From positions 1 through 34,720 of the forward strand of contig CASEAH010000106.1 of NCBI GenBank assembly GCA_949285935.1: 34,720 nucleotides of DNA, given 5' to 3'. This document shows, piece after piece, positions 9,493 to 22,017 of the stretch. Position numbers and translations under genes: made by a program. Origin of the DNA: an uncultured Oscillospiraceae bacterium. GTDB lineage: Bacteria > Bacillota > Clostridia > Oscillospirales > Ruminococcaceae. The notes below the pieces were generated by a model. The model did no database searches. It was given only the letters and a program-made list of their open reading frames with translations, and was not told where the DNA came from. Position 1 is the first letter of the stretch; each line of letters starts with the position of its first letter.

Positions 9493-9579
9493 AAATTTGT
9501 TGCAGGCAGAAAATTTAATGGCTATCCAGGTCCACATGGGATGGACAGGGATATTTGTCGAAAAAAGTCGAAAATTGCA

Positions 9580-9608
9580 TTGAACCCCATTCGTCGTCTG
9601 GCTATAAT
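9580..9608 (+). promoter_or_regulatory. sigma-A promoter of the comEC-holA operon
   Basis: TTGAAC (9580-9585), a 17-base spacer and a perfect TATAAT (9603-9608) lie about 50 bases before the comEC ATG. Confidence 0.8.
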
Positions 9609-9659
9609 AGAAGGGTAAGATTCTTCCTTGCCTCAAAAAGCAGACGGGGGGACAAGCCT

Positions 9660-11693
9660 ATGAAACGGCCCTTATGTGTTTTCGCAGCGGCTTTCCTGCT
9701 GCACACAGGGGCTTTCTTTTTCGGCGGAAAGCTTCTGGCCGCAGCGGTACCTGCGGTGGGAGGCATATGGTGCCTTTTATTTTTTCGCAGCCGGAGCTCC
9801 AATGCCTATGCCCTGGCCCTCTGCCTATTGGCGGGAAGCCTGGGCTCTCTTCTTGCATCCCAGTGTTTTCTTATCCGGACGCAGCAGTTCCAGGCTCTGT
9901 CCGGCCAGACCCTGTCATTTGAGGGGTATGTAAATGAATCCGGAGCCTACGGTTCCGGCACTGCGGTGATCTGGGCACGCATCCCGGGTTTGGGGCATCG
10001 GGTACTGCAGGCTTCGCTCCAGCCCGGGGAAGCGGAACCCGGCGACCTGGTGGAGGGCCGTTTTCTTGTCCGGGGTATCCGTTCAGACGCCGGTGAGGTC
10101 CCTGTGTCAGGCGGCCTGATCCTCACCGGTCGGGTGGAAGAGCTGCAGCTTTTGGAAGAAACCCGGAATATTCCCCTGCTATGGAGGATCATGGGAATCC
10201 GCCGCGCACTCTTTGAGCAGGTACGGCTGGCGGTTCCCGGCCCCAACGGCGGACTTCTGGCCGGGATGCTCTTTTCCATCCGGGACGGGATTCCCGACAG
10301 TATCGCCTATCCTCTGGACGATGCGGGACTGAGCCATATCCTGTCTGTTTCGGGGCTGCATCTCAGCATCCTGTCGGGGCTTTTGCTGGGACTCTGCCGT
10401 CATTTGCGGCTCCGGCCCGGCGTGACCCTTCTGCTTTGTTCCGCAGGAGTGGCTGTTATGGTTGTGGCGGCCGGCTTCGCGCTTTCTGTCCTTCGGGCCG
10501 GGATCATGACCCTGCTTTACCTGGCCGCACAAACGGTGGGGCGGCGCAGTGACGGCCTTACTTCCCTGGCTCTGGCCGCCGTCCTTCTCTGCGCCTTCTA
10601 TCCGCCTGCCCGGGGAGAAACCGGCTTTCAGCTTTCTTTTGCCGCCACGCTGGCCATCCTTCTTCTGGCCAGACCTCTGTCCCGATGGTTTCTGGACCGG
10701 TGGGTCGCCCTGCGGGGAAAGGCCGGAGTTCCTTCCCGGTGGGCAGCCGGCACTCTGGGCGTCTGCTGTGCCGCCCAGATCGGCGTCATGCCCATTCTGG
10801 GTTTTCTCAACGGGTATCTGCCCACCTACAGCATTGCTGCCAATCTTCTGGCAGCTCCTTTGATTTTTGCCGCTCTGGCCATGGGGCTCACCGGCTCCTG
10901 CCTGCTTCTTGTGGGGTTGGATCTGGTTGCCGCGCCCATGCTCCGGGCCGCTTCCCTGCCCTGCGGCCTGCTGGCAGGTCTGGGAAAGCTCTGCCGGGCT
11001 TTGCCTTTGACCCGCCTTCCGGTATATCAGGACTGGGCGAGGGCTTTGATGCTGCTGACGGTCTGCGTGGCAGCGGCGGCAGGCTGTCTGACTCTGTCTC
11101 CTCCGGCCCGCAGAACTCTTTTGCGGCTCTGGGCCGCGGTGCTGGCGGTTTCCTGCCTGATTTTTCCTTTTTCCCGGTCGGGCAGCGTTATGGTGGTAAC
11201 CAACCCGGAGGCCCGTGCCATAACCCTTACCGGTCCCGAAGGTACGCTGATGGTATATGATCTGACGGACCGGGGCAGTTACGAAGCACGGATGGTCACT
11301 CAAATGCTGACCCGGTCGGGACTGGGCGTGCCGCAGCGGAGCCTCCCGCTCCAGGGCGGCGTTATGTCTGGTTTTTCCGCCCGGCAGCTGCTGCCGGGAG
11401 TCCGGGTGGGGATGCCTCACACCTATGCCACCACGATAGAGATCGGCAGCATCAAAGTGCTGAAATTCTGGGCGGGATATGATATAATAGTCCAGTATGG
11501 ATCCCGGGGGCTTTGGGAAGAAGCAGATCTTATCGCCGATGTGGAATGGAATCTGTATGCCCGCAACCCGGAAATCACCATCCACCGGAGGAATACCGGC
11601 GATCAAATCGTGGTTCTCTCCCGGAAGCTGGTTTGGAAAGGAGGGGGCGGCGGTGCGGCTTCAGGACCCCAAAAAGCTGTACGAAGCGGGTGA
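9660..11693 (+). CDS. comEC: ComEC/Rec2 family DNA-uptake channel
   Basis: The 677-residue membrane protein has an N-terminal DUF4131-like part (to about 190; QTLSFEGYVNESG, GDLVEGRFLVRG). The Competence domain core follows, with the hallmark ILSVSGLHLSILSGLL near residue 225 and the later GFLNGYLPTYSIAANLLAAPLI. ComEC forms the inner-membrane channel for incoming single-stranded DNA. I chose ATG 9660, which has a G-rich ribosome binding site; the open frame upstream (from 9555) spans the promoter. The C-terminal 190 or so residues occupy the place of the metallo-beta-lactamase-like nuclease domain but have no HxHxDH motif, so that domain is degenerate. comEC followed directly by holA is a common arrangement in Firmicutes; here they overlap by 41 bases. 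Confidence 0.88.
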   Translation: MKRPLCVFAAAFLLHTGAFFFGGKLLAAAVPAVGGIWCLLFFRSRSSNAYALALCLLAGSLGSLLASQCFLIRTQQFQALSGQTLSFEGYVNESGAYGSGTAVIWARIPGLGHRVLQASLQPGEAEPGDLVEGRFLVRGIRSDAGEVPVSGGLILTGRVEELQLLEETRNIPLLWRIMGIRRALFEQVRLAVPGPNGGLLAGMLFSIRDGIPDSIAYPLDDAGLSHILSVSGLHLSILSGLLLGLCRHLRLRPGVTLLLCSAGVAVMVVAAGFALSVLRAGIMTLLYLAAQTVGRRSDGLTSLALAAVLLCAFYPPARGETGFQLSFAATLAILLLARPLSRWFLDRWVALRGKAGVPSRWAAGTLGVCCAAQIGVMPILGFLNGYLPTYSIAANLLAAPLIFAALAMGLTGSCLLLVGLDLVAAPMLRAASLPCGLLAGLGKLCRALPLTRLPVYQDWARALMLLTVCVAAAAGCLTLSPPARRTLLRLWAAVLAVSCLIFPFSRSGSVMVVTNPEARAITLTGPEGTLMVYDLTDRGSYEARMVTQMLTRSGLGVPQRSLPLQGGVMSGFSARQLLPGVRVGMPHTYATTIEIGSIKVLKFWAGYDIIVQYGSRGLWEEADLIADVEWNLYARNPEITIHRRNTGDQIVVLSRKLVWKGGGGGAASGPQKAVRSG

Positions 11694-12699
11694 GGTTTCG
11701 TTTCCTGTGGTGCTGCTGTACGGAGAAGACAGCTACCGGCTGGAAAAAGCCGCTGCTGAACTGCTGAAAAACGCCGTCACCGCTTTTCCGGATTTCAACC
11801 TGTATTCGGTGGACGGCCGGGCCGGCGTGGATATGGACAAGGTGGCCGACTCGGCCCAGAGCCTTCCCTTTATGGCAGAGCGGCGCGCGGTGGTGCTGGA
11901 CGACCTGGATTTGGCGGCCCTTTCGGCTTCCGACGCCGAAAAACTCTGGCAGCTGCTGGCCGATCTTCCCTCCACCACACTAATGCTGATCACACTGCGC
12001 ACCCTGCCGCTGGAATATAAGAAAAAAGGCTCCCGCAGCCAGAAGCTGTATGACCTGTGCGACAAAGCTGGAGCGGTGTGCGAATTTTCCAAGCCGGGCC
12101 GCAGCGACTGCGCCCGGATGGCAGCTTCTCTGGCCAACCGTCAGGGAAGCCGCCTGGATCCTCCAGAGGGACTTCTGCTGGCCGATTACTGCGGATGCGA
12201 CACCCTTCGGATCCGCGGCGAGGTGGAAAAACTGTGTGCCTACGCCGGGGAACAGATCCACCGGGAGGACATCCTGCTGTTGGTGGAGCCGGTTCGGGAA
12301 GCCCGGGTCTTCGACCTTTCGGACCGGATCGTCCGGCGGGATTTCCGGGGTGCTATGGAGGTGGTGGACCGGCTGCTTTTCCAGCGGGAGGCTCCGGTAT
12401 CTGTGCTGACCATCCTCACCATGGCCTTTGTGGATATCTACCGGGCGGCTGCAGCCCGGGCCGCGGGGCTTTCCGAAAAAGATGCCCGGGCCGCCTTTGG
12501 ATATGGCGCATCGGCCTATCGCTACACCAAAGCGGTGGAAAACCAGCGGCGGGTAGACAGCCGCTGCCTGGGTGAGATTCTGGAAACTCTGGCCAATGCG
12601 GACCAGGATATGAAAACCGGCGGCATCGATCCGGCCGTGGTGCTGGAAACGGTGGTAGCCCGGATTTTTCTGATTATGAACAGGAGCGATCCGTCTTGA
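11653..12699 (+). CDS. holA: DNA polymerase III subunit delta
   Basis: The 348-residue protein matches HolA, the clamp-loader subunit that opens the beta clamp. Support includes the N-terminal VVLLYGEDSYRLEKAAAELL, LPFMAERRAVVLDDLD, and the delta-specific C-terminal helices (ARVFDLSDRIVRRDFRGAMEV, LANADQDMKTGG). The start is a GTG at 11653, with AAAGGAGG 8 bases upstream, inside the end of comEC; an upstream in-frame ATG at 11497 has no such site and would add unrelated residues. It overlaps comEC by 41 bases and meets the next gene at TGATG, implying translational coupling. Confidence 0.9.
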   Translation: MRLQDPKKLYEAGEVSFPVVLLYGEDSYRLEKAAAELLKNAVTAFPDFNLYSVDGRAGVDMDKVADSAQSLPFMAERRAVVLDDLDLAALSASDAEKLWQLLADLPSTTLMLITLRTLPLEYKKKGSRSQKLYDLCDKAGAVCEFSKPGRSDCARMAASLANRQGSRLDPPEGLLLADYCGCDTLRIRGEVEKLCAYAGEQIHREDILLLVEPVREARVFDLSDRIVRRDFRGAMEVVDRLLFQREAPVSVLTILTMAFVDIYRAAAARAAGLSEKDARAAFGYGASAYRYTKAVENQRRVDSRCLGEILETLANADQDMKTGGIDPAVVLETVVARIFLIMNRSDPS

Positions 12700-13307
12700 T
12701 GAAGGTGGAGCTGCCCATTATCGTAGAGGGCAGATATGATAAAAGCAAACTCAGCTCCCTGGTGGAGGCGGAAATCATTGTCACCGGTGGGTTCCATATC
12801 TACCGGGACCGGGAAACCATGGCCCTCATCCGCCGCCTGGCCCGGGAAAGCAAAATCATTATCCTCACCGACAGCGACCGGGCAGGCTTCCAGATCCGCC
12901 GGTATATCGCCGGAGCCGTACCGGCCGACCGGGTCGTCCATATCTATGTGCCCGAAATCCTGGGCAAGGAAAAGCGGAAGGCTGCTCCCGGCGCCCAGGG
13001 GATCCTGGGGGTGGAGGGAATTCCCGCGGAGATCCTCCGCAAGGCCTTTCTGGATGCAGGGGTGGCGGTGACAGATGCGGGGGAGCCCCCTGCTTCTTCC
13101 CATCCTCCCATCACCAAGGCAAACCTGTATGCCCTGGGGCTGTGCGGGGGACCGGACAGTGCCCTGCGCCGTCGGGCACTGCAGCGGCGGCTGGGGCTTC
13201 CCCAGGGTCTGAGCGCCAACGCCCTGCCTGGTGTTCTCAGCCGCATCATTTCACTGGAGGACCTGACCGCCCTGGTGCGGGAACTTTCCTCCCAAAAAGG
13301 AGAGTAA
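12699..13307 (+). CDS. rnmV: ribonuclease M5-like TOPRIM protein
   Basis: The 202-residue protein has a TOPRIM domain: the catalytic Glu in PIIVEGRYDKSKL near the N-terminus and the DxD motif in ILTDSDRAGFQIR (about 50-60). It continues into a C-terminal DUF4093-like part (ITKANLYALGLCGGPDSALRR...). Ribonuclease M5 matures 5S rRNA in Gram-positive bacteria, and this is the usual assignment for TOPRIM proteins of this size with such a tail. The ATG at 12699 overlaps the holA stop by one base; a TTG at 12696 has slightly better spacing to AGGAG and is the alternative. A 5S role is inferred from the family, not shown here. Confidence 0.8.
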   Translation: MKVELPIIVEGRYDKSKLSSLVEAEIIVTGGFHIYRDRETMALIRRLARESKIIILTDSDRAGFQIRRYIAGAVPADRVVHIYVPEILGKEKRKAAPGAQGILGVEGIPAEILRKAFLDAGVAVTDAGEPPASSHPPITKANLYALGLCGGPDSALRRRALQRRLGLPQGLSANALPGVLSRIISLEDLTALVRELSSQKGE

Positions 13308-13312
13308 TAATT

Positions 13313-13486
13313 ATGGAACCGATTCATTACATTCTGCTGCGCATCGATGGAGATTACGCCCAGCTGGTATCTGCGGAGGAGCCTCTGTCCACTCCCTTTC
13401 CGGTTGCCCTGGCCCTCCTCCCCGACTCCGTGCGGGAGGGAGATCATCTGGTGTGGCAAAATCTGGAATATGCCGTCCAGCCCTGA
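13313..13486 (+). CDS. small DUF3006-like protein
   Basis: The 57-residue protein reads MEPIHYILLRIDGDYAQLVS... and ends ...LLPDSVREGDHLVWQNLEYA. The combination of an initial IDGDYA.L strand and a later LP..VREGD turn resembles the short DUF3006 domain, whose function is unknown. It follows the M5-like gene by 5 bases with a strong AAAGGAG site. The family match is by eye and should be treated as moderate. Confidence 0.6.
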   Translation: MEPIHYILLRIDGDYAQLVSAEEPLSTPFPVALALLPDSVREGDHLVWQNLEYAVQP

Positions 13487-13595: not shown

Positions 13596-14984
13596 ACGCA
13601 GATTTTCAGCCTGACTTTTTTATTCTTTTTTCTGCCCCTGACGGCTCTTATTTTTTATGCCGTTACGCCGCGGTACAAAACTTTTGTGCTGTTTGTGGCG
13701 TCTTTGTTTTTTTATCTTTTCCTTCCCCAGCCCTTTCTGGGGCCGGAATCCATGCGCCTTTTCCCCCTGAATCTGGCGGTGATGCTGGCATGTGTATACT
13801 CCGATTATCTGCTGGCCCGTCCCATCTATCTGTACGGAAAAGGGCGGCCTCAGGCCAGAGCGGCTCTCTATTTCTGCGCCGCTAAAAACATCCTTTTGTT
13901 TGTGATCCTCTCCTCCGTGGGGCAGCTGGGGATCCTGAACATGCCGGTAGGGGTGGCGGTGTACGCCTTTACCTCTCTGGGCTACCTCATTGATCTGTAC
14001 AACGGAGAGGCCGACCTGGTCACTTCCCCCTACGACTACGGTCTGTTCTGCTTCTTTTTCGGCAAAATTTATGTGGGTCCTATTGTTTCCTGCAATGATT
14101 TTGTTTCCCAGCTTCACCGGCCCCGCTCTTTTTCCCTGACCCGGATGGGCAACGGCTTTGTCTGGGTAATCCATGGCATGGCCAAAAAGGTGATCCTTGC
14201 CGATGGGGTATTGGCCCTGGCCAGCCGCCTTCAGGCCATTGACTATACCGAAAAAACCGTTTTCTCCATGTGGCTGCTGCTGGTGTGCTACATCTTTGCC
14301 GCCTATTTTACCCTTTCCGGCTACAGCGACATGGCCCGGGGCACCGGCGCCCTGCTGGGACTGGATCTTCCGGAAAACTTCCATTACCCTCTCCAGGCTG
14401 ATTCGGTGACCGACTTTTTTTCCCGCTTTAACATTTCCGCTTACCGCTTCGTCCGCAAATATGTCTATGGCGCTCTGGGCGCCGAGGACAACGGACCTCT
14501 GGCCACCACCCTGAACATCATGCTCATCACCATGCTGATGGGCCTGTGGTATGGGGTTTCTGTAAATTTTCTGGTTTGGGGAGCGTCTCTGGGGCTGGTG
14601 ATCGTATTGGAAACCGTCTTTGGCGAGCGGTTTCTCCACCGGGTCCCTGCTCTGTTCCGGCGGATCTATACCTTTGTCTGTATCGTTCTGTCCTTTGTAT
14701 GGTTTTCCACCCAGAGCCTCAACCAATCCTTTTTTTATCTGCAAACCATGCTGGGGCTGAGCCGGGATACGTATAATCTGGCCGCACCTGTTTTTGTGGA
14801 TGAATACAGCCTCTATCTTGCTTCTTCCAACTGGCTGCTGCTGACGCTTTGCGTCTTTTTCTGCACCGGGCTCACCACCCGTACCGCCCGGCGGCTGGCC
14901 AGCCGGAAGCCCCTTTTGGTGGAGACGGTTTCCGCCGCCGCCAATCTGCTGCTGCTGGCCGTGGTGCTGGCCTTTATGGTTTAG
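13596..14984 (+). CDS. MBOAT-family membrane protein lacking the catalytic histidines
   Basis: The frame matches membrane-bound O-acyltransferases of the AlgI/DltB type, polytopic proteins that move acyl groups across the membrane to wall or extracellular polymers. Family landmarks are clear: FFGKIYVGPIVSCNDF, GYSDMARGTGALLG and LPENFHYP. The defining residues are changed. The WRRWHIS-type motif is FSRFNIS (Asn279), and the LWHG..WNF..WG..HG motif reads LWYGVSVNFLVWGASLG (Tyr319 for the catalytic His, Leu332 for the second His). Start choice: family N-termini extend upstream of the first conventional start (GTG 13686). The frame is open to 13554, and the codon at the right distance (8 bases) from AAGGAGG is ACG at 13596; ATT at 13602 is the other option. 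A conventional caller would start at 13686 and lose the first membrane segment. The DHHW-like gene follows by 15 bases. Confidence 0.8.
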   Translation, partial: TQIFSLTFLFFFLPLTALIFYAVTPRYKTFVLFVASLFFYLFLPQPFLGPESMRLFPLNLAVMLACVYSDYLLARPIYLYGKGRPQARAALYFCAAKNILLFVILSSVGQLGILNMPVGVAVYAFTSLGYLIDLYNGEADLVTSPYDYGLFCFFFGKIYVGPIVSCNDFVSQLHRPRSFSLTRMGNGFVWVIHGMAKKVILADGVLALASRLQAIDYTEKTVFSMWLLLVCYIFAAYFTLSGYSDMARGTGALLGLDLPENFHYPLQADSVTDFFSRFNISAYRFVRKYVYGALGAEDNGPLATTLNIMLITMLMGLWYGVSVNFLVWGASLGLVIVLETVFGERFLHRVPALFRRIYTFVCIVLSFVWFSTQSLNQSFFYLQTMLGLSRDTYNLAAPVFVDEYSLYLASSNWLLLTLCVFFCTGLTTRTARRLASRKPLLVETVSAAANLLLLAVVLAFMV

Positions 14985-14999
14985 GAAGGAGGAGCCGGA

Positions 15000-16127
15000 T
15001 TGGAACGACATTTTTCTACGGTTCTTTACGGACTTGCCATTTTGGTTTTGTCTGCCGCCGCCCTGCTTCTCCATCCCTCCTCGGCCCGTGAGGCGCTGGC
15101 CATGATCACCGATCCTCTTGTCTTTCCCACGGTGATGGAGGATTTTTATCAGCACGGACTTCCCTTTGCGGATACCCTCCGGGACGTCTGCCTTCAGCTG
15201 CGGATGTTGGGAGGAGCGGAGGAATTTGACGGGATCGTGCTGGCCAACGACGGCCTGATCGAAAATTTTATCCCCAGTGAGGACACCGCCCTGCGGAAAA
15301 AAAACACCGCCGCGGTGCGGCAGTTTGCCGAAGAAAGCGGGATTCCCACCTACCTGATGATCGTCCCCACCGCCTGCGCCATCTATCAGGAACAGCTTCC
15401 CGCCAACATGAACCTGTATAATCAGAAGCGGTTTATTGAAGAGACCTACCGCTCTCTTTCCGGGCAGGTGACTGCCATCGACGTCTATCCCACCCTTTAT
15501 ACCGCCCGGGAGGATTACCTTTATTACCGCAGTGACTCCCGTCTCACCTCTCTGGGAGGATATACTGTCTACCAGACTTTGGCCCGCCGGCTTGGGCTGA
15601 CTCCCAGCCAGGAATTCTCTCTGGACCGTGTCTCCCATGATTTTTACGGAGACCTGTATGACCGGTGGGGATATGGCGGCGTCAAGCCGGACATCATCAC
15701 CCTTTACCACAACCTGTCCGCGCAGCGCTCATACCGGGTCTACCACTGGGACCGGTATGAGGAGCGTACCTATTACGGACTGTATCCTTCCGAGGCCGCC
15801 GTCTCCGGCAAACAGGAGGATATTATTCTGGGGGGACATTCTCCCCGTATGGAGATCACCGCCTTGGGCGCCCCCGATCAGAGCCTCCTGGTATTGGGCG
15901 ACCGGGGGACCCTCAGCTACCTGCCTTTTCTGGCGTCCCATTACCGCACCATCACCTACCTGGACCTGACCCTCCTGACCCAATGGGAAATCGAAGATCT
16001 GTCCGCCCAGGGGTATGATCAGGTGCTCTTTGCCTGCGATTTAAGCACCTATCTTAATACCGACAGCTTTGCCCGGGTTTCGGGTCTTTCCCTGGCAGCT
16101 CCGGCGGAAGGAGATCCCGTGAAATGA
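15000..16127 (+). CDS. DHHW/AlgJ-like extracellular protein with degenerate active site
   Basis: The 375-residue protein has an N-terminal signal anchor (ERHFSTVLYGLAILVLSAAA) and the general layout of DHHW proteins, SGNH-like partners of MBOAT acyltransferases. Matching landmarks are FDGIVLANDGLIENFIP, YLMIVPTACAIYQEQLP and DVYPTLYTAREDYLYYR. In the signature segment the usual YYRTDHHWTSLG reads YYRSDSRLTSLGG, so Asp179 remains but the His residues and Trp are Ser180, Arg181 and Leu182. The usual KDS motif before the fully conserved PFL is LGDRGTLSYLPFL, with Arg302 at the serine position. Catalytic Asp/His/Ser chemistry therefore seems lost. The TTG start at 15000 has GGAGG 8 bases upstream. 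It overlaps the MATE gene by 4 bases (ATGA). Family membership rests on motif reading by eye. Confidence 0.7.
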   Translation: MERHFSTVLYGLAILVLSAAALLLHPSSAREALAMITDPLVFPTVMEDFYQHGLPFADTLRDVCLQLRMLGGAEEFDGIVLANDGLIENFIPSEDTALRKKNTAAVRQFAEESGIPTYLMIVPTACAIYQEQLPANMNLYNQKRFIEETYRSLSGQVTAIDVYPTLYTAREDYLYYRSDSRLTSLGGYTVYQTLARRLGLTPSQEFSLDRVSHDFYGDLYDRWGYGGVKPDIITLYHNLSAQRSYRVYHWDRYEERTYYGLYPSEAAVSGKQEDIILGGHSPRMEITALGAPDQSLLVLGDRGTLSYLPFLASHYRTITYLDLTLLTQWEIEDLSAQGYDQVLFACDLSTYLNTDSFARVSGLSLAAPAEGDPVK

Positions 16128-17482
16128 AAAACGACTTTTCCCAGGGCAGCGTTATTTCCAACATTCTTTCCCTGGCGCTGCCCATGACGCTGGCCCAGCT
16201 GGTCAATGTCCTGTACAACATTGTGGACCGGATGTACATTGGCCGGATGCCTCAGGATGCGACCCTGGCCCTTACAGGCATCGGTCTGGCCCTTCCTATC
16301 ATTACCATGGTCATGGCCTTTGCCAACCTCTTTGGCACCGGAGGCGCTCCCCTCTGCTCCATCGCCCGGGGCAGCGGCCGTATTGAGGATGCGGAAGTGA
16401 TCATGGGCAATGCCTTCTCCCTGCTGCTGCTTTGCGGCGCGGTCATCACGCTGCTGGGACTGCTGTTCCAGAAGCCTTTGCTGTATCTGTTCGGAGCCAG
16501 CGACGCCACCTATCCCTTTGCAGGTCCCTATACCACCATCTACCTTTGCGGCAGCATTTTTGTGATGATCAGCCTGGGGATGAACGGCTTTATCAATGCC
16601 CAGGGCTTTGGGCGGATGGGGATGATGACCGTACTGCTGGGAGCGGGCGCCAATATCCTTCTGGACCCCATTTTCATTTTTGTTCTGGGTATGGGCGTCC
16701 GGGGCGCCGCTTTGGCCACCATCCTCTCTCAGGGGCTTTCCGCCCTGTGGGTCCTGCGGTTCCTCACCGGCCCCCGGGCCATCCTGCGGCTCCGGCTTTC
16801 CTGCCTGCGGCTGCGTCCCCGGCAGGTGCGGGAAATCGTGATGCTGGGGCTTTCCGGCTTTACCATGGGCATTACCAACAGCGCCGTGCAGGTTTTCTGC
16901 AATGCCGGTCTTCAGGCCTATGGCGGCGACCTGTATGTAGGGGTAATGACGGTCATCAACTCTGTGCGGGAGATCGTCACCATGCCCATCAACGGCCTGA
17001 CCAACGGCGCCCAACCCATTATGGGCTACAATTACGGCGCCGGCTGCTATGGCCGGGTACGGCAGGCCATTCGCTTCTGTTCCTGGACCTGCATTATCTA
17101 CACCTTTGTTTTTTGGGGACTGCTTTACTTCTTCCCCGCCTTTTTCATCCATATCTTCAACGACAACCCCGCTTTGGTGGAGGCCGCCATTCCGGCTCTT
17201 CACATCTATTTCTTCGGCTACTTTATGATGTCTCTGCAATTTGCGGGGCAGTCTGTTTTTGTGGCGCTGGGTAAATCCCGACAAGCCATTTTCTTCTCCC
17301 TGCTGCGCAAGGCTTTTATTGTCATTCCTCTCACCCTGCTGCTGCCCCGGTTGTGGGGGCTGGGGGTCACCGGGGTATTTTTGGCGGAGCCCGTGTCCAA
17401 CTTCATTGGCGGAGCCGCCTGCTTTATTACCATGCTTCTTACGGTCTGGCCTGAGCTGTCCCAAGAAGAAACAGTAATGTAG
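16124..17482 (+). CDS. MATE family efflux transporter
   Basis: The 452-residue protein has about twelve hydrophobic segments and typical MATE sequence: an N-terminal ISNILSLALPMTLAQLVNVL followed by YNIVDRMYIGRM, LFGTGGAPLCSIARG, and a second-half NGLTNGAQPIMGYNYGAG. These antiporters export drugs or metabolites using Na+ or H+ gradients. It overlaps the DHHW-like gene at ATGA, so translation is likely coupled and the three genes MBOAT, DHHW-like and MATE are co-transcribed. The substrate is unknown; co-occurrence with the altered acyltransferase pair leaves open export of a wall or lipid precursor, but that is speculation. Confidence 0.9.
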   Translation: MKNDFSQGSVISNILSLALPMTLAQLVNVLYNIVDRMYIGRMPQDATLALTGIGLALPIITMVMAFANLFGTGGAPLCSIARGSGRIEDAEVIMGNAFSLLLLCGAVITLLGLLFQKPLLYLFGASDATYPFAGPYTTIYLCGSIFVMISLGMNGFINAQGFGRMGMMTVLLGAGANILLDPIFIFVLGMGVRGAALATILSQGLSALWVLRFLTGPRAILRLRLSCLRLRPRQVREIVMLGLSGFTMGITNSAVQVFCNAGLQAYGGDLYVGVMTVINSVREIVTMPINGLTNGAQPIMGYNYGAGCYGRVRQAIRFCSWTCIIYTFVFWGLLYFFPAFFIHIFNDNPALVEAAIPALHIYFFGYFMMSLQFAGQSVFVALGKSRQAIFFSLLRKAFIVIPLTLLLPRLWGLGVTGVFLAEPVSNFIGGAACFITMLLTVWPELSQEETVM

Positions 17483-18461: not shown

Positions 18462-18803
18462 TCAGCCCGGAGGCCAGGCCAGGGAGCGGCCTGCCAGAAC
18501 ATGAAAATGCAGGTGTCCCACTGTCTGGCCTCCTTCCTCACCGCAATTGGTCACCACCCGGAAGCCTTTGTCCAGGCCCAGCTGGCCGGCAACTTTAGCG
18601 ATCACTTCGTAAATGTGACCCACCACGGCGCTGTTGCTGCTGTCCACCGCGGCAGCGGAGGGAATATGGGTTTTGGGAATGACCAGAAAATGAACCGGCG
18701 CCTGAGGGCTCAGGTCGTAAAAGGCCAGACACTGGTCGTCCTCATACACTTTGTTGGAAGGGATCTCTCCTGCTGCGATCTTACAGAAAATACAGTCGCT
18801 CAT
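18462..18803 (-). CDS. HIT family nucleotide-binding protein
   Basis: The 113-residue protein begins MSDCIFCKIAAGEIPSNKVY and ends with the histidine triad HLHFHVLAGR, the catalytic site of HINT-type purine nucleotide phosphoramidases. VHFLVIPKTHIPS is the conserved central strand. GGAGG lies upstream of ATG 18801-18803; the longer open frame would add 38 unrelated residues. The CxxC at the N-terminus (CIFC) is common in bacterial HIT proteins. Length matches the family. Confidence 0.93.
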   Translation of the reverse strand: MSDCIFCKIAAGEIPSNKVYEDDQCLAFYDLSPQAPVHFLVIPKTHIPSAAAVDSSNSAVVGHIYEVIAKVAGQLGLDKGFRVVTNCGEEGGQTVGHLHFHVLAGRSLAWPPG

Positions 18804-19315
18804 CTTTTGCGCACCTCCTTTGAAGTAAATTCCGAAAAGAAAATATTTCTTTACAACACAACCGGCCGCAAGCGTCTCGGCGGACAGGAACCACCAAAAC
18901 CCTCTCAGTTTTTCCACTGTGTCTTCCTGCCGGGGTGGAAAACAATTTCCGGCTCATCCTCCGATGACGGCACAGGGAGGGGCTTTCCGGTATCCCGCCA
19001 TTGGCATGCACACCCTGTTCCAGAGCAGATAAAACAAGTATCTGCATATTTCTGAAGATGGTTCTAAAACAGCAGTATGTTTTCCTTCCCGTTTCTTTTG
19101 GGGGAAATGGATGGATGGATGGGACTGCCGTTTTGTTACGGTGCTTCCCCTCGGGCACAACCGGCACCGATTCCTCAGAAGAAGCAGTTGTTCTGCCCGA
19201 TAAGATCTCTTCCCGGCAAAGGACATCCTTCTCCGGTGTTGCAGGCAGCCTCTCTGGGTTCGGCAGCGTTTTCGTCTGAATATTAAGGCATTTGCGGCGT
19301 CTCCGGGGAGCCGCC
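18804..19315. other. intergenic region between HIT gene and alaS
   Basis: About 510 bases with no supported gene. Open frames on both strands have low-complexity, non-protein-like translations. A short tetranucleotide run (four copies of ATGG around 19106-19122) and an imperfect palindrome (about 19294-19315) are the only structures noticed. The HIT promoter should lie near 18810-18870 on the minus strand but no good -35/-10 pair stands out. Confidence 0.5.
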
Positions 19316-19371
19316 AATTTTCCTTTGGATGGGGATCCCCTGCCGGAACAGGGGTCCCCGCCACAGGAAAA

Positions 19372-19373
<2 letters not shown>
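19316..19373 (-). terminator. probable terminator of alaS
   Basis: On the minus strand a long stem-loop starts at the alaS stop codon. An outer AATTTTCCT/AGGAAAATT pair brackets an inner GGGGA(T)CCCCTG/CAGGGG(T)CCCC stem. The T tract after it is poor, so efficiency is uncertain. Confidence 0.5.

Positions 19374-22017
<2,644 letters not shown>

Follow-up and report, generated by a model that had tools for sequence, protein, structure and literature searches.

An MBOAT protein and an adjoining SGNH protein of the DHHW type, encoded on contig CASEAH010000106.1 of an uncultured Oscillospiraceae bacterium (the 34,720-nucleotide stretch analyzed, hereafter "the window"), have kept their architecture while losing the residues of an acyl-transfer relay. 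We consider, with a probability of about 0.6, that they represent a conserved, non-catalytic membrane-envelope pseudoenzyme complex that arose in situ from an acyltransferase pair. Judging from the residues of both proteins, the relay has very probably been lost, and it is quite likely that the complex has been retained under selection.

Residues and folds of the window pair

Table 1. Features of the window pair and its neighborhood, in window coordinates.
Feature	Position	Strand	Remarks
comEC-like gene, slot neighbor	9555..11693	+	PF03772 E 3.7e-44
holA-like gene (DNA polymerase III delta), slot neighbor; start uncertain	11497..12699	+	PF21694, PF06144
Toprim/DUF4093 gene, upstream of the pair, conserved-slot marker	12696..13307	+	PF13331 E 4e-15
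MBOAT-fold membrane protein without acyl-transfer residues	13596..14984	+	PF03062 E 1.1e-13; AF2 pLDDT 91.9; top PDB fold DltB 6bug
Lys157, new conserved basic residue	14064..14066	+	Lys/Arg in 27/33 depleted; Gln in 24/24 complete
Asn279, first MBOAT active-site position	14430..14432	+	complete orthologues have His, several other MBOATs Asn
Tyr319, replaces invariant catalytic His	14550..14552	+	His in 24/24 complete, 0/33 depleted slot pairs
MBOAT C-terminus, stops at last helix, without FxYxxF acyl-shuttle motif	14910..14984	+	
DHHW/SGNH-fold envelope protein without triad His/Ser and oxyanion Arg	15000..16127	+	PF14286 E 1.4e-15; AF2 pLDDT 91.1; top PDB folds 4nzk, PatB1 5v8d
DSRL replaces DHHW (block V), Asp179 kept	15534..15545	+	residues 179-182
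Asp-Arg-Gly replaces Asp-Ser-Tyr; block I without its nucleophile, Asp301 retained	15900..15908	+	residues 301-303
Thr324 replaces block II oxyanion Arg (DxRY)	15969..15971	+	Arg in 24/24 complete, 0/33 depleted
MATE transporter, overlaps SGNH stop codon, outside conserved unit	16124..17482	+	TIGR00797, PF01554

A sequence-only reading of this stretch had proposed that both proteins kept their architecture and lost their acyl-transfer residues, with both reading frames intact. This was borne out: the frames are open, both folds are predicted to be intact (pLDDT 92 and 91), and the relay residues, except for Asp179, are absent. The MBOAT start is uncertain (ACG 13596 or ATT 13602), the place aligned to that ACG being ATG, GTG, or TTG in relatives. 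The PF03062 match of the MBOAT exceeds the cut-off and its fold matches that of DltB with an E of 1.7e-10, while its score against TIGR04091, the DltB equivalog, is 86.1 bits, below the curated cut-off of 375.

The residues singled out in the MBOAT (Asn279, Tyr319, Leu332) and in its partner (DSRL at 179-182, Asp301-Arg302-Gly303) are as described there; two of the losses drawn from them did not stand. Leu332 does not mark the loss of a catalytic His, since 24 of 24 complete slot orthologues carry Phe or Tyr in that column, and Asn279 alone does not amount to a catalytic loss, as the first active-site position is His, Asn, or Asp among MBOATs according to excerpts of PMC5831804 and PMC11035591. 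Read from sequence, the critical substitution in the MBOAT is that of Tyr for His at position 319; in excerpts of PMC12148441, this His is said to be universally conserved in MBOATs and to be required there. In the DltB alignment, Trp-His stands opposite Phe-Asn of the window protein, and Gly-Phe-Trp-His-Gly opposite Gly-Leu-Trp-Tyr-Gly. Two further losses had been overlooked, i.e., the C-terminal FxYxxF shuttle motif, missing from the window MBOAT, and the oxyanion Arg of the SGNH protein.

On the SGNH side, the DHHW catalytic blocks TDHHW, KDS, and DxRY read SDSRL, GDRG, and DLTL in the window, and alignment with 4nzk places TDHHW opposite SDSRL and KDSY opposite GDRG. Ser, His, and the block II Arg, to which excerpts of PMC9487903 assign the oxyanion role, are gone from the relay, and Asp179 remains. 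The N-terminal helix of this protein is a probable membrane anchor, and its fold matches include AlgJ and AlgX. PF14286 was matched by all 38 members of the alignment, five of them complete. For the family surveyed here, the Pfam labels MBOAT and DHHW are, as names alone, no evidence of O-acetylation.

Complete and depleted pairs at a conserved slot

The pair occupies a fixed, family-wide slot in the order comEC-holA-Toprim-MBOAT-SGNH, in a family made up mostly of gut bacteria. Both genes were present at 57 of the 98 slot loci surveyed, adjoining on one strand as they do in the window. Among these pairs, 24 were complete, i.e., with His279, His319, DHHW, Ser, Arg, and a terminal FxYxxF, and 33 were depleted, without the MBOAT His319, the terminal Tyr motif, or the SGNH Arg324. 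Scored on these last three elements, not one of the 57 pairs was half-equipped, and the terminal FxYxxF was present in 24/24 complete and 0/33 depleted pairs, with a single internal look-alike (L143). All 33 depleted pairs had open frames of near-normal length, the shortest MBOAT and SGNH proteins measuring 444 and 345 aa, compared to 467 and 380 aa for complete pairs. Within the main depleted set of 54 MBOAT sequences, Asn279 was found in 96% and Phe278 in 94%, both columns ranking in the most conserved tenth, and position 319 is Phe or Tyr in the depleted MBOAT chamber. The SGNH triad columns of the depleted set drift (commonest residue in 28-40% of 53 sequences), and no conserved replacement nucleophile was seen in them. 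Depleted pairs outside the main clade kept different remnants of the old motifs; among their SGNH proteins, three non-catalytic-looking ones retain Ser, and that of L103 retains the whole triad.

Catalytically complete slot orthologues are still present in sister genera (e.g., L101, L096, and L090), with the same locus, gene order, and families. Within the genus, an orthologue at 60-63% identity was found in 7 of the 9 genomes searched and none in the other two (59% complete each). When these close homologues were checked for WHG and DHHW, the MBOAT His was absent from 7/7 and DHHW from 6/6 partners in the fetched DNA. A single decaying copy is excluded by these relatives with the same losses and by the open frames of depleted slot pairs; the adjacency of the two genes and their low dN/dS likewise agree with the earlier claim against simple decay. 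The pair can be lost, given that no MBOAT was detected at 35 of the 98 slot loci, 11 of these being stretches <3.2 kb, and that two full-length regions (L139 and L181) carry a very divergent MBOAT and no recognisable SGNH gene. One genome, G001, has its pair elsewhere than in the slot.

The sequence-only reading had further placed the pair in an operon with the MATE transporter, perhaps with a shared role. The arrangement itself stands in the window, where the SGNH and MATE genes overlap by an ATGA; however, a MATE relative (E 1e-20 or better) was found at only 1 of 48 named SGNH-bearing loci (L037, on the opposite strand), 38 of which extend 1.5 kb or more downstream, and at only 1 of the 98 slot loci (L135, where the pair is complete). 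For want of a conserved MATE neighbor, a MATE-linked function was rejected. Nothing in the gene neighborhood names a ligand.

Selection and history of the loss

We checked for relaxed selection through dN/dS among named relatives of the window species. Values were far below 1 for 28 close depleted pairs (0.06-0.27 for MBOAT, 0.05-0.47 for SGNH), and those of ComEC, where measured, were 0.16-0.34. For complete pairs, dN/dS was mostly saturated, with a usable MBOAT value (0.08-0.14) in 4 of 14 listed pairs, and selection can therefore not be strictly compared between both states. Given RpoB, MBOAT and SGNH distances displayed partial correlations of 0.52 across 31 depleted and 0.49 across 24 complete genomes, compared to 0.11 and 0.33, respectively, for MBOAT and Toprim. 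At an RpoB identity of ~0.80, mean MBOAT identity was 0.34 in the main depleted clade, 0.25 in other depleted pairs, and 0.60 in complete pairs. This much faster evolution of depleted MBOATs is the pattern expected under relaxed constraint.

Because the Toprim+HolA species tree (13 changes, with stars on 10 of its 95 inner branches) was too weak, RpoB was used as the species tree. There, a single clade of depleted genomes was rejected (p 8e-50). Barring transfer or an old duplication, the loss thus probably occurred more than once, with a minimum of 7 events at 95% support. A somewhat unlikely alternative is that a single pair, an ancient depleted paralogue or one acquired by transfer, was differentially sorted among lineages; in its favor, the MBOAT tree requires only 1 state change and the SGNH tree 3. 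However, the MBOAT tree joins long branches, the SGNH tree groups the depleted L169 with complete L090 and L134 (100%), its genome's RpoB neighbors, and the fragments of old motifs differ among depleted pairs outside the main clade. Outside the main clade, 13 depleted MBOATs (of 33 in all) also scored higher against a complete one than against any other depleted one, a weak argument because complete sequences, which evolve slowly, score high in any case.

Candidate roles of the depleted pair

The ancestor, at the same slot, would have been a catalytic MBOAT-SGNH O-acyltransferase pair whose relay would have passed acyl groups from a cytoplasmic donor to the C-terminal Tyr, with the MBOAT His assisting, and onward to the SGNH Ser and an envelope polymer. 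This relay has very probably been dismantled at every step, whereas the chamber in the membrane, the fold of the SGNH protein, and the pairing were retained. We infer that the depleted pair would perform no acyl transfer, and the presence of both genes, intact and side by side, suggests a second, non-chemical job of the complex. The rebuilt MBOAT chamber (Asn279, Phe/Tyr319, Lys/Arg157) may hold a lipid or lipid-linked glycan, while on the outer face the SGNH domain may bind or steer a surface polymer; we give this scaffold or binding role slightly less than an even chance. On a similarly tentative footing, MBOAT-SGNH complexes in general may have a hidden catalysis-independent function, which several lineages of this one family kept alone as the relay was dismantled as a block and the chamber rebuilt.

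Should the acylated polymer have become unneeded, both genes could instead be losing constraint jointly, the observed cases being intermediates before deletion. The faster evolution of depleted MBOATs, the slot loci with no MBOAT detected (some of them short stretches), the two regions without a recognisable SGNH gene, and the somewhat shorter depleted proteins at the low end would all fit such a slow decay. Yet it is made improbable by the long open frames of every depleted pair, dN/dS far below 1, the conservation of former active-site columns in their new state, and the genome G012 (1.2 Mb, 100% complete), which keeps a depleted slot pair as its sole PF03062 and sole PF14286 match. This same genome bears on the idea that depleted pairs are regulators or decoys, forming mixed complexes with catalytic paralogous MBOAT-SGNH pairs of the same cell. 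The window genome encodes two further MBOATs (L001 and L002), each of which retains both His and the shuttle motif and is accompanied by a DHHW partner. Of the 33 depleted-slot genomes, 30 were searched, and in 29 of these a PF03062 match lies, judged by place alone, away from the slot. However, the pair of G012 cannot act on such a paralogue, as that genome has no other PF03062 or PF14286 match; an active paralogue is thus not generally needed, and we regard this role as quite unlikely.

A neofunctionalised enzyme, with another chemistry running via Asn279, the aromatic 319, and Lys/Arg157 and with the SGNH protein merely presenting the acceptor, would account for the conservation of Asn279 and the Gln157 to Lys/Arg change, which point to a rebuilt, constrained chamber rather than drift. 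In addition, an Asn in first position is normal in other MBOATs, as excerpts of PMC11035591 and PMC5831804 indicate. Against this, the MBOAT His given as universally required in excerpts of PMC12148441 is gone, the shuttle Tyr and the oxyanion Arg are missing from 33/33 depleted pairs, and the SGNH columns show no shared new nucleophile, so that a new enzyme appears unlikely.

In the favored reading, as a conserved non-catalytic complex, a relay has lost, at a fixed locus and apparently repeatedly, the chemistry of both its partners jointly, and the complete orthologues of sister genera provide natural matched pairs for roles of MBOAT-SGNH proteins beyond acyl transfer. If a catalysis-independent function has indeed been kept, these pairs would form a new class of paired membrane pseudoenzymes; the familiar pseudoenzymes are single proteins. 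No description of a double-depleted bacterial MBOAT-SGNH pair was recognised among the matches listed from the open-access literature, preprints excluded.

Among known systems, PatA1/PatB1 of B. cereus, a DHHW-family SCWP O-acetyltransferase pair (PatB1 structures 5V8D/5V8E), shares the MBOAT gene beside a DHHW-type SGNH gene and the SGNH fold, but PatB1 requires the KDS, TDHHW, and DxRY residues according to excerpts of PMC9487903, whereas the window protein is without Ser, both His, and Arg. From the DltB/DltD/DltX system, DltB comes closest to the window MBOAT both among solved folds and as an HMM relative; the window MBOAT differs in its missing catalytic His and in its 86 bits versus an equivalog cut-off of 375. 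The two-protein architecture is likewise that of C. jejuni PatA with PatB and of AlgI-AlgJ-AlgX; unlike the window MBOAT, which has neither, C. jejuni PatA requires His315 and the FxYxxF Tyr (excerpts of PMC12148441). Finally, mammalian HHATL is also an MBOAT with its conserved His replaced, there by Leu (excerpts of PMC5831804), and is said to be a negative regulator of the Hedgehog pathway. HHATL is a eukaryotic single protein, however, whereas here both relay partners are stripped and the loss seems recurrent.

Residues, folds and relatives of the pair

The two adjacent genes match the Pfam families MBOAT (E 1.1e-13) and DHHW (E 1.4e-15), and both the window DNA and the alignment columns bear out the intact frames and residue assignments of the sequence-only reading. 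In the MBOAT protein, Tyr replaces His319 and the C-terminal FxYxxF is absent; the SGNH protein carries Ser302Arg, His181Arg and Arg324Thr and still has Asp179 and Asp301. By alignment, these changed places are catalytic residues of the solved relative DltB and of solved 4nzk, respectively. According to the accessible parts of the cited papers, PatA requires the invariant His and the Tyr of its C-terminal FxYxxF, through which the acyl group reaches the Ser of the SGNH protein (PMC12148441), and PatB1 relies on Ser337, His202, Asp200 and oxyanion Arg359 within the blocks KDS, TDHHW and DxRY (PMC9487903). Two further supposed losses did not hold up: Asn279 alone is no proof of loss because His, Asn and Asp are all possible at the first MBOAT position according to the accessible text of PMC5831804 and PMC11035591, and Leu332, taken for a missing second His, occupies a position that is Phe or Tyr in 24/24 complete slot enzymes. 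Since the AlphaFold models are confident (mean pLDDT 91.9 for MBOAT, 91.1 for SGNH) and their closest solved folds are DltB for the former and 4nzk and Bacillus cereus PatB1 for the latter, both folds appear to be retained as far as prediction tells. The window genome has two further MBOATs (loci L001 and L002), each with both His residues, FxYxxF and a DHHW partner, the distal end of the L001 partner lying beyond the analyzed DNA.

Coordinates of features in the window and at two related loci
Feature	Location	Strand	Remark
Small gene, window	13313–13486		between Toprim and MBOAT; weakly DUF3006-like (21 bits, below cut-off)
MBOAT-fold gene, window	13596–14984	+	ACG at aligned start
ATT codon, window	13602		possible alternative start
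SGNH-fold gene, window	15000–16127	+
HIT and alanyl-tRNA synthetase genes, window	18465–22017	opposite	upstream of comEC in several relatives
SGNH gene, L007	3075		ACG at aligned start; Angelakisella massiliensis type (cf. L037)
Pair, L078	5956–8571		Hespellia sp. MAG

Both ACG codons follow a good AGGAGG, and either these or, in the window, the ATT codon possibly serve as starts; in most other members of the genus the aligned codon is ATG, GTG or TTG.

Homologues with the same substitutions, which the sequence-only reading had proposed to look for, do exist. Orthologues at 60–63% identity were found in 7/9 genus genomes searched (L005–L011), with distant matches only in G003 and G007 (both 59% complete). 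The invariant MBOAT His is missing from all seven and from seven more of other genera (L012–L018; 14/14), L018 retaining His at the first position, and DHHW is missing from 13/13 readable partners (none for L006 within the analyzed DNA; that of L011 is cut). A scan of named genomes, including A. massiliensis, Negativibacillus massiliensis, Merdimmobilis hominis, Anaerotruncus massiliensis and Marasmitruncus massiliensis, yielded 53 loci, 50 without the invariant His (exceptions L081, L083 and L085), although these shares are no survey because the scan patterns derived from depleted sequences, i.e., those without His319, FxYxxF and Arg324. Among the 47 readable partners of these 50, at least one triad member is missing in 46 and the oxyanion Arg is kept in none (the L038 partner is cut). 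L078, which lacks comEC, holA and Toprim neighbors, shows an odd half-loss: its MBOAT has WYN at the invariant His but retains the first His along with the terminal motif FLYFSF (FxYxxF), and its partner has the triad without the oxyanion Arg. At L030 (genome G057), an MBOAT with both His and FxYxxF is paired with a partner reading NDSRW instead of TDHHW.

Joint loss in the conserved slot

Across the named loci and the window (n = 54), the pair neighbors comEC in 40, holA in 41 and Toprim in 41, and complete pairs (all acyl-relay elements) in other genera likewise stand after holA–Toprim. The position of the HIT and alanyl-tRNA synthetase genes downstream of the pair in the window is a local rearrangement.

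For an unselected view of this slot, the Toprim gene was searched in 109 family genomes and matched in 98, including the window genome; downstream DNA was read at 98 loci from the 97 others (G019 sampled twice, one further copy left out). An MBOAT followed Toprim at 63/98 loci, and both genes were detected at 57. The six loci without SGNH comprise four cut by contig or sampled-stretch ends (L088, L097, L108, L142) and two full stretches (L139, L181) with very divergent MBOATs (135 and 50 bits) and no recognizable SGNH gene downstream, where the partner may have been lost. No MBOAT was found at 35/98 loci, 11 of them stretches <3.2 kb; G001 is one such genome, with its pair elsewhere (L010). 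In other families of the order, 128 genomes matched Toprim, and 0/40 examined, chosen across families, had an MBOAT after it (two stretches <2 kb, one 3.3 kb).

Scored by His279/His319 and Asp/His/Ser, the 57 slot pairs comprise 24 complete in both proteins, 32 depleted in both and one mixed (L103). Because L103 also lacks the oxyanion Arg, it counts as depleted, and scoring by His319, terminal FxYxxF and Arg324 gives 24 versus 33 with no mixed case. Single elements persist among the 33 (His279 in 4, Ser302 in 4, Asp179 in 19). Fisher's p for co-loss, 3e-15, ignores kinship and is not taken as a probability here.

History of loss and selection

On the RpoB tree (57 rows, made up of 55 of the 57 slot genomes and two from the window's genus; the other two slot genomes were excluded for fragmentary RpoB), 11 state changes are needed and a single clade of depleted genomes is rejected (p 8e-50). 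Allowing losses only, with polytomies merged, gives 14, 10, 9 and 7 at support thresholds of 0, 80, 90 and 95, counts from one gene and a quick search that assume no transfer. One change suffices on the MBOAT tree (68 rows, after exclusion of four that were cut or extreme), where depleted branches are long and the tree program flags long-branch attraction. On the SGNH tree, built without L143, the count is three, with depleted L169 clustering at 100% with complete L090 and L134, whose genomes neighbor its own on the RpoB tree; L169, at least, is separate from the main depleted clade in a gene tree. Depleted pairs outside that clade retain differing old-motif fragments (KDSY and DPRW in L115, DHRW and RDEY in L169, C-terminal PFLCFTL in L136). 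We infer several independent losses, while gene transfer, or old duplication with sorting, may instead account for this distribution.

The dN/dS check suggested by the sequence-only reading was run on the 28 most alike of 63 close pairs among named loci, yielding 0.06–0.27 for MBOAT and 0.05–0.47 for SGNH, alongside 0.04–0.12 for HolA, 0.05–0.21 for Toprim and 0.16–0.34 for ComEC where present. At comparable RpoB identity, divergence is faster in depleted than in complete MBOATs. In a column comparison of 54 main depleted and 30 complete sequences, which excluded L078, L081–L086 and the second copy from L035, depleted MBOATs conserve Asn279 (96%) and Phe278 (94%), and 83% have Lys in place of Gln157; in the SGNH protein, the triad columns drift, with Asp301 retained in 98%. 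With RpoB removed, MBOAT–SGNH distances correlate at 0.52 (31 depleted) and 0.49 (24 complete), and MBOAT–Toprim distances at 0.11 and 0.33.

Proposed role and known systems

Most likely, the depleted pair forms a complex that no longer transfers acyl groups and would still function as a membrane-envelope scaffold whose chamber is under constraint. Since the MBOAT chamber has settled into a new, conserved state and the SGNH active site drifts freely, the retained function would lie in chamber binding by MBOAT, with the SGNH fold as docking part. New MBOAT chemistry is a rival to this scaffold, as is slow decay of both genes. Regulation of an active pair is possible in genomes other than G012, another MBOAT being present in 29/30 depleted-slot genomes searched. 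However, G012 (1.2 Mb, rated 100% complete) gives no PF03062 or PF14286 match other than the depleted pair, which rules out a general need for an active paralogue and argues against regulation as a general role.

Among the papers listed in open-access literature searches, none was recognizable as a description of paired bacterial losses of this kind; among known systems, the mammalian HHATL is, in the available text of PMC5831804, an MBOAT that likewise lacks the His.
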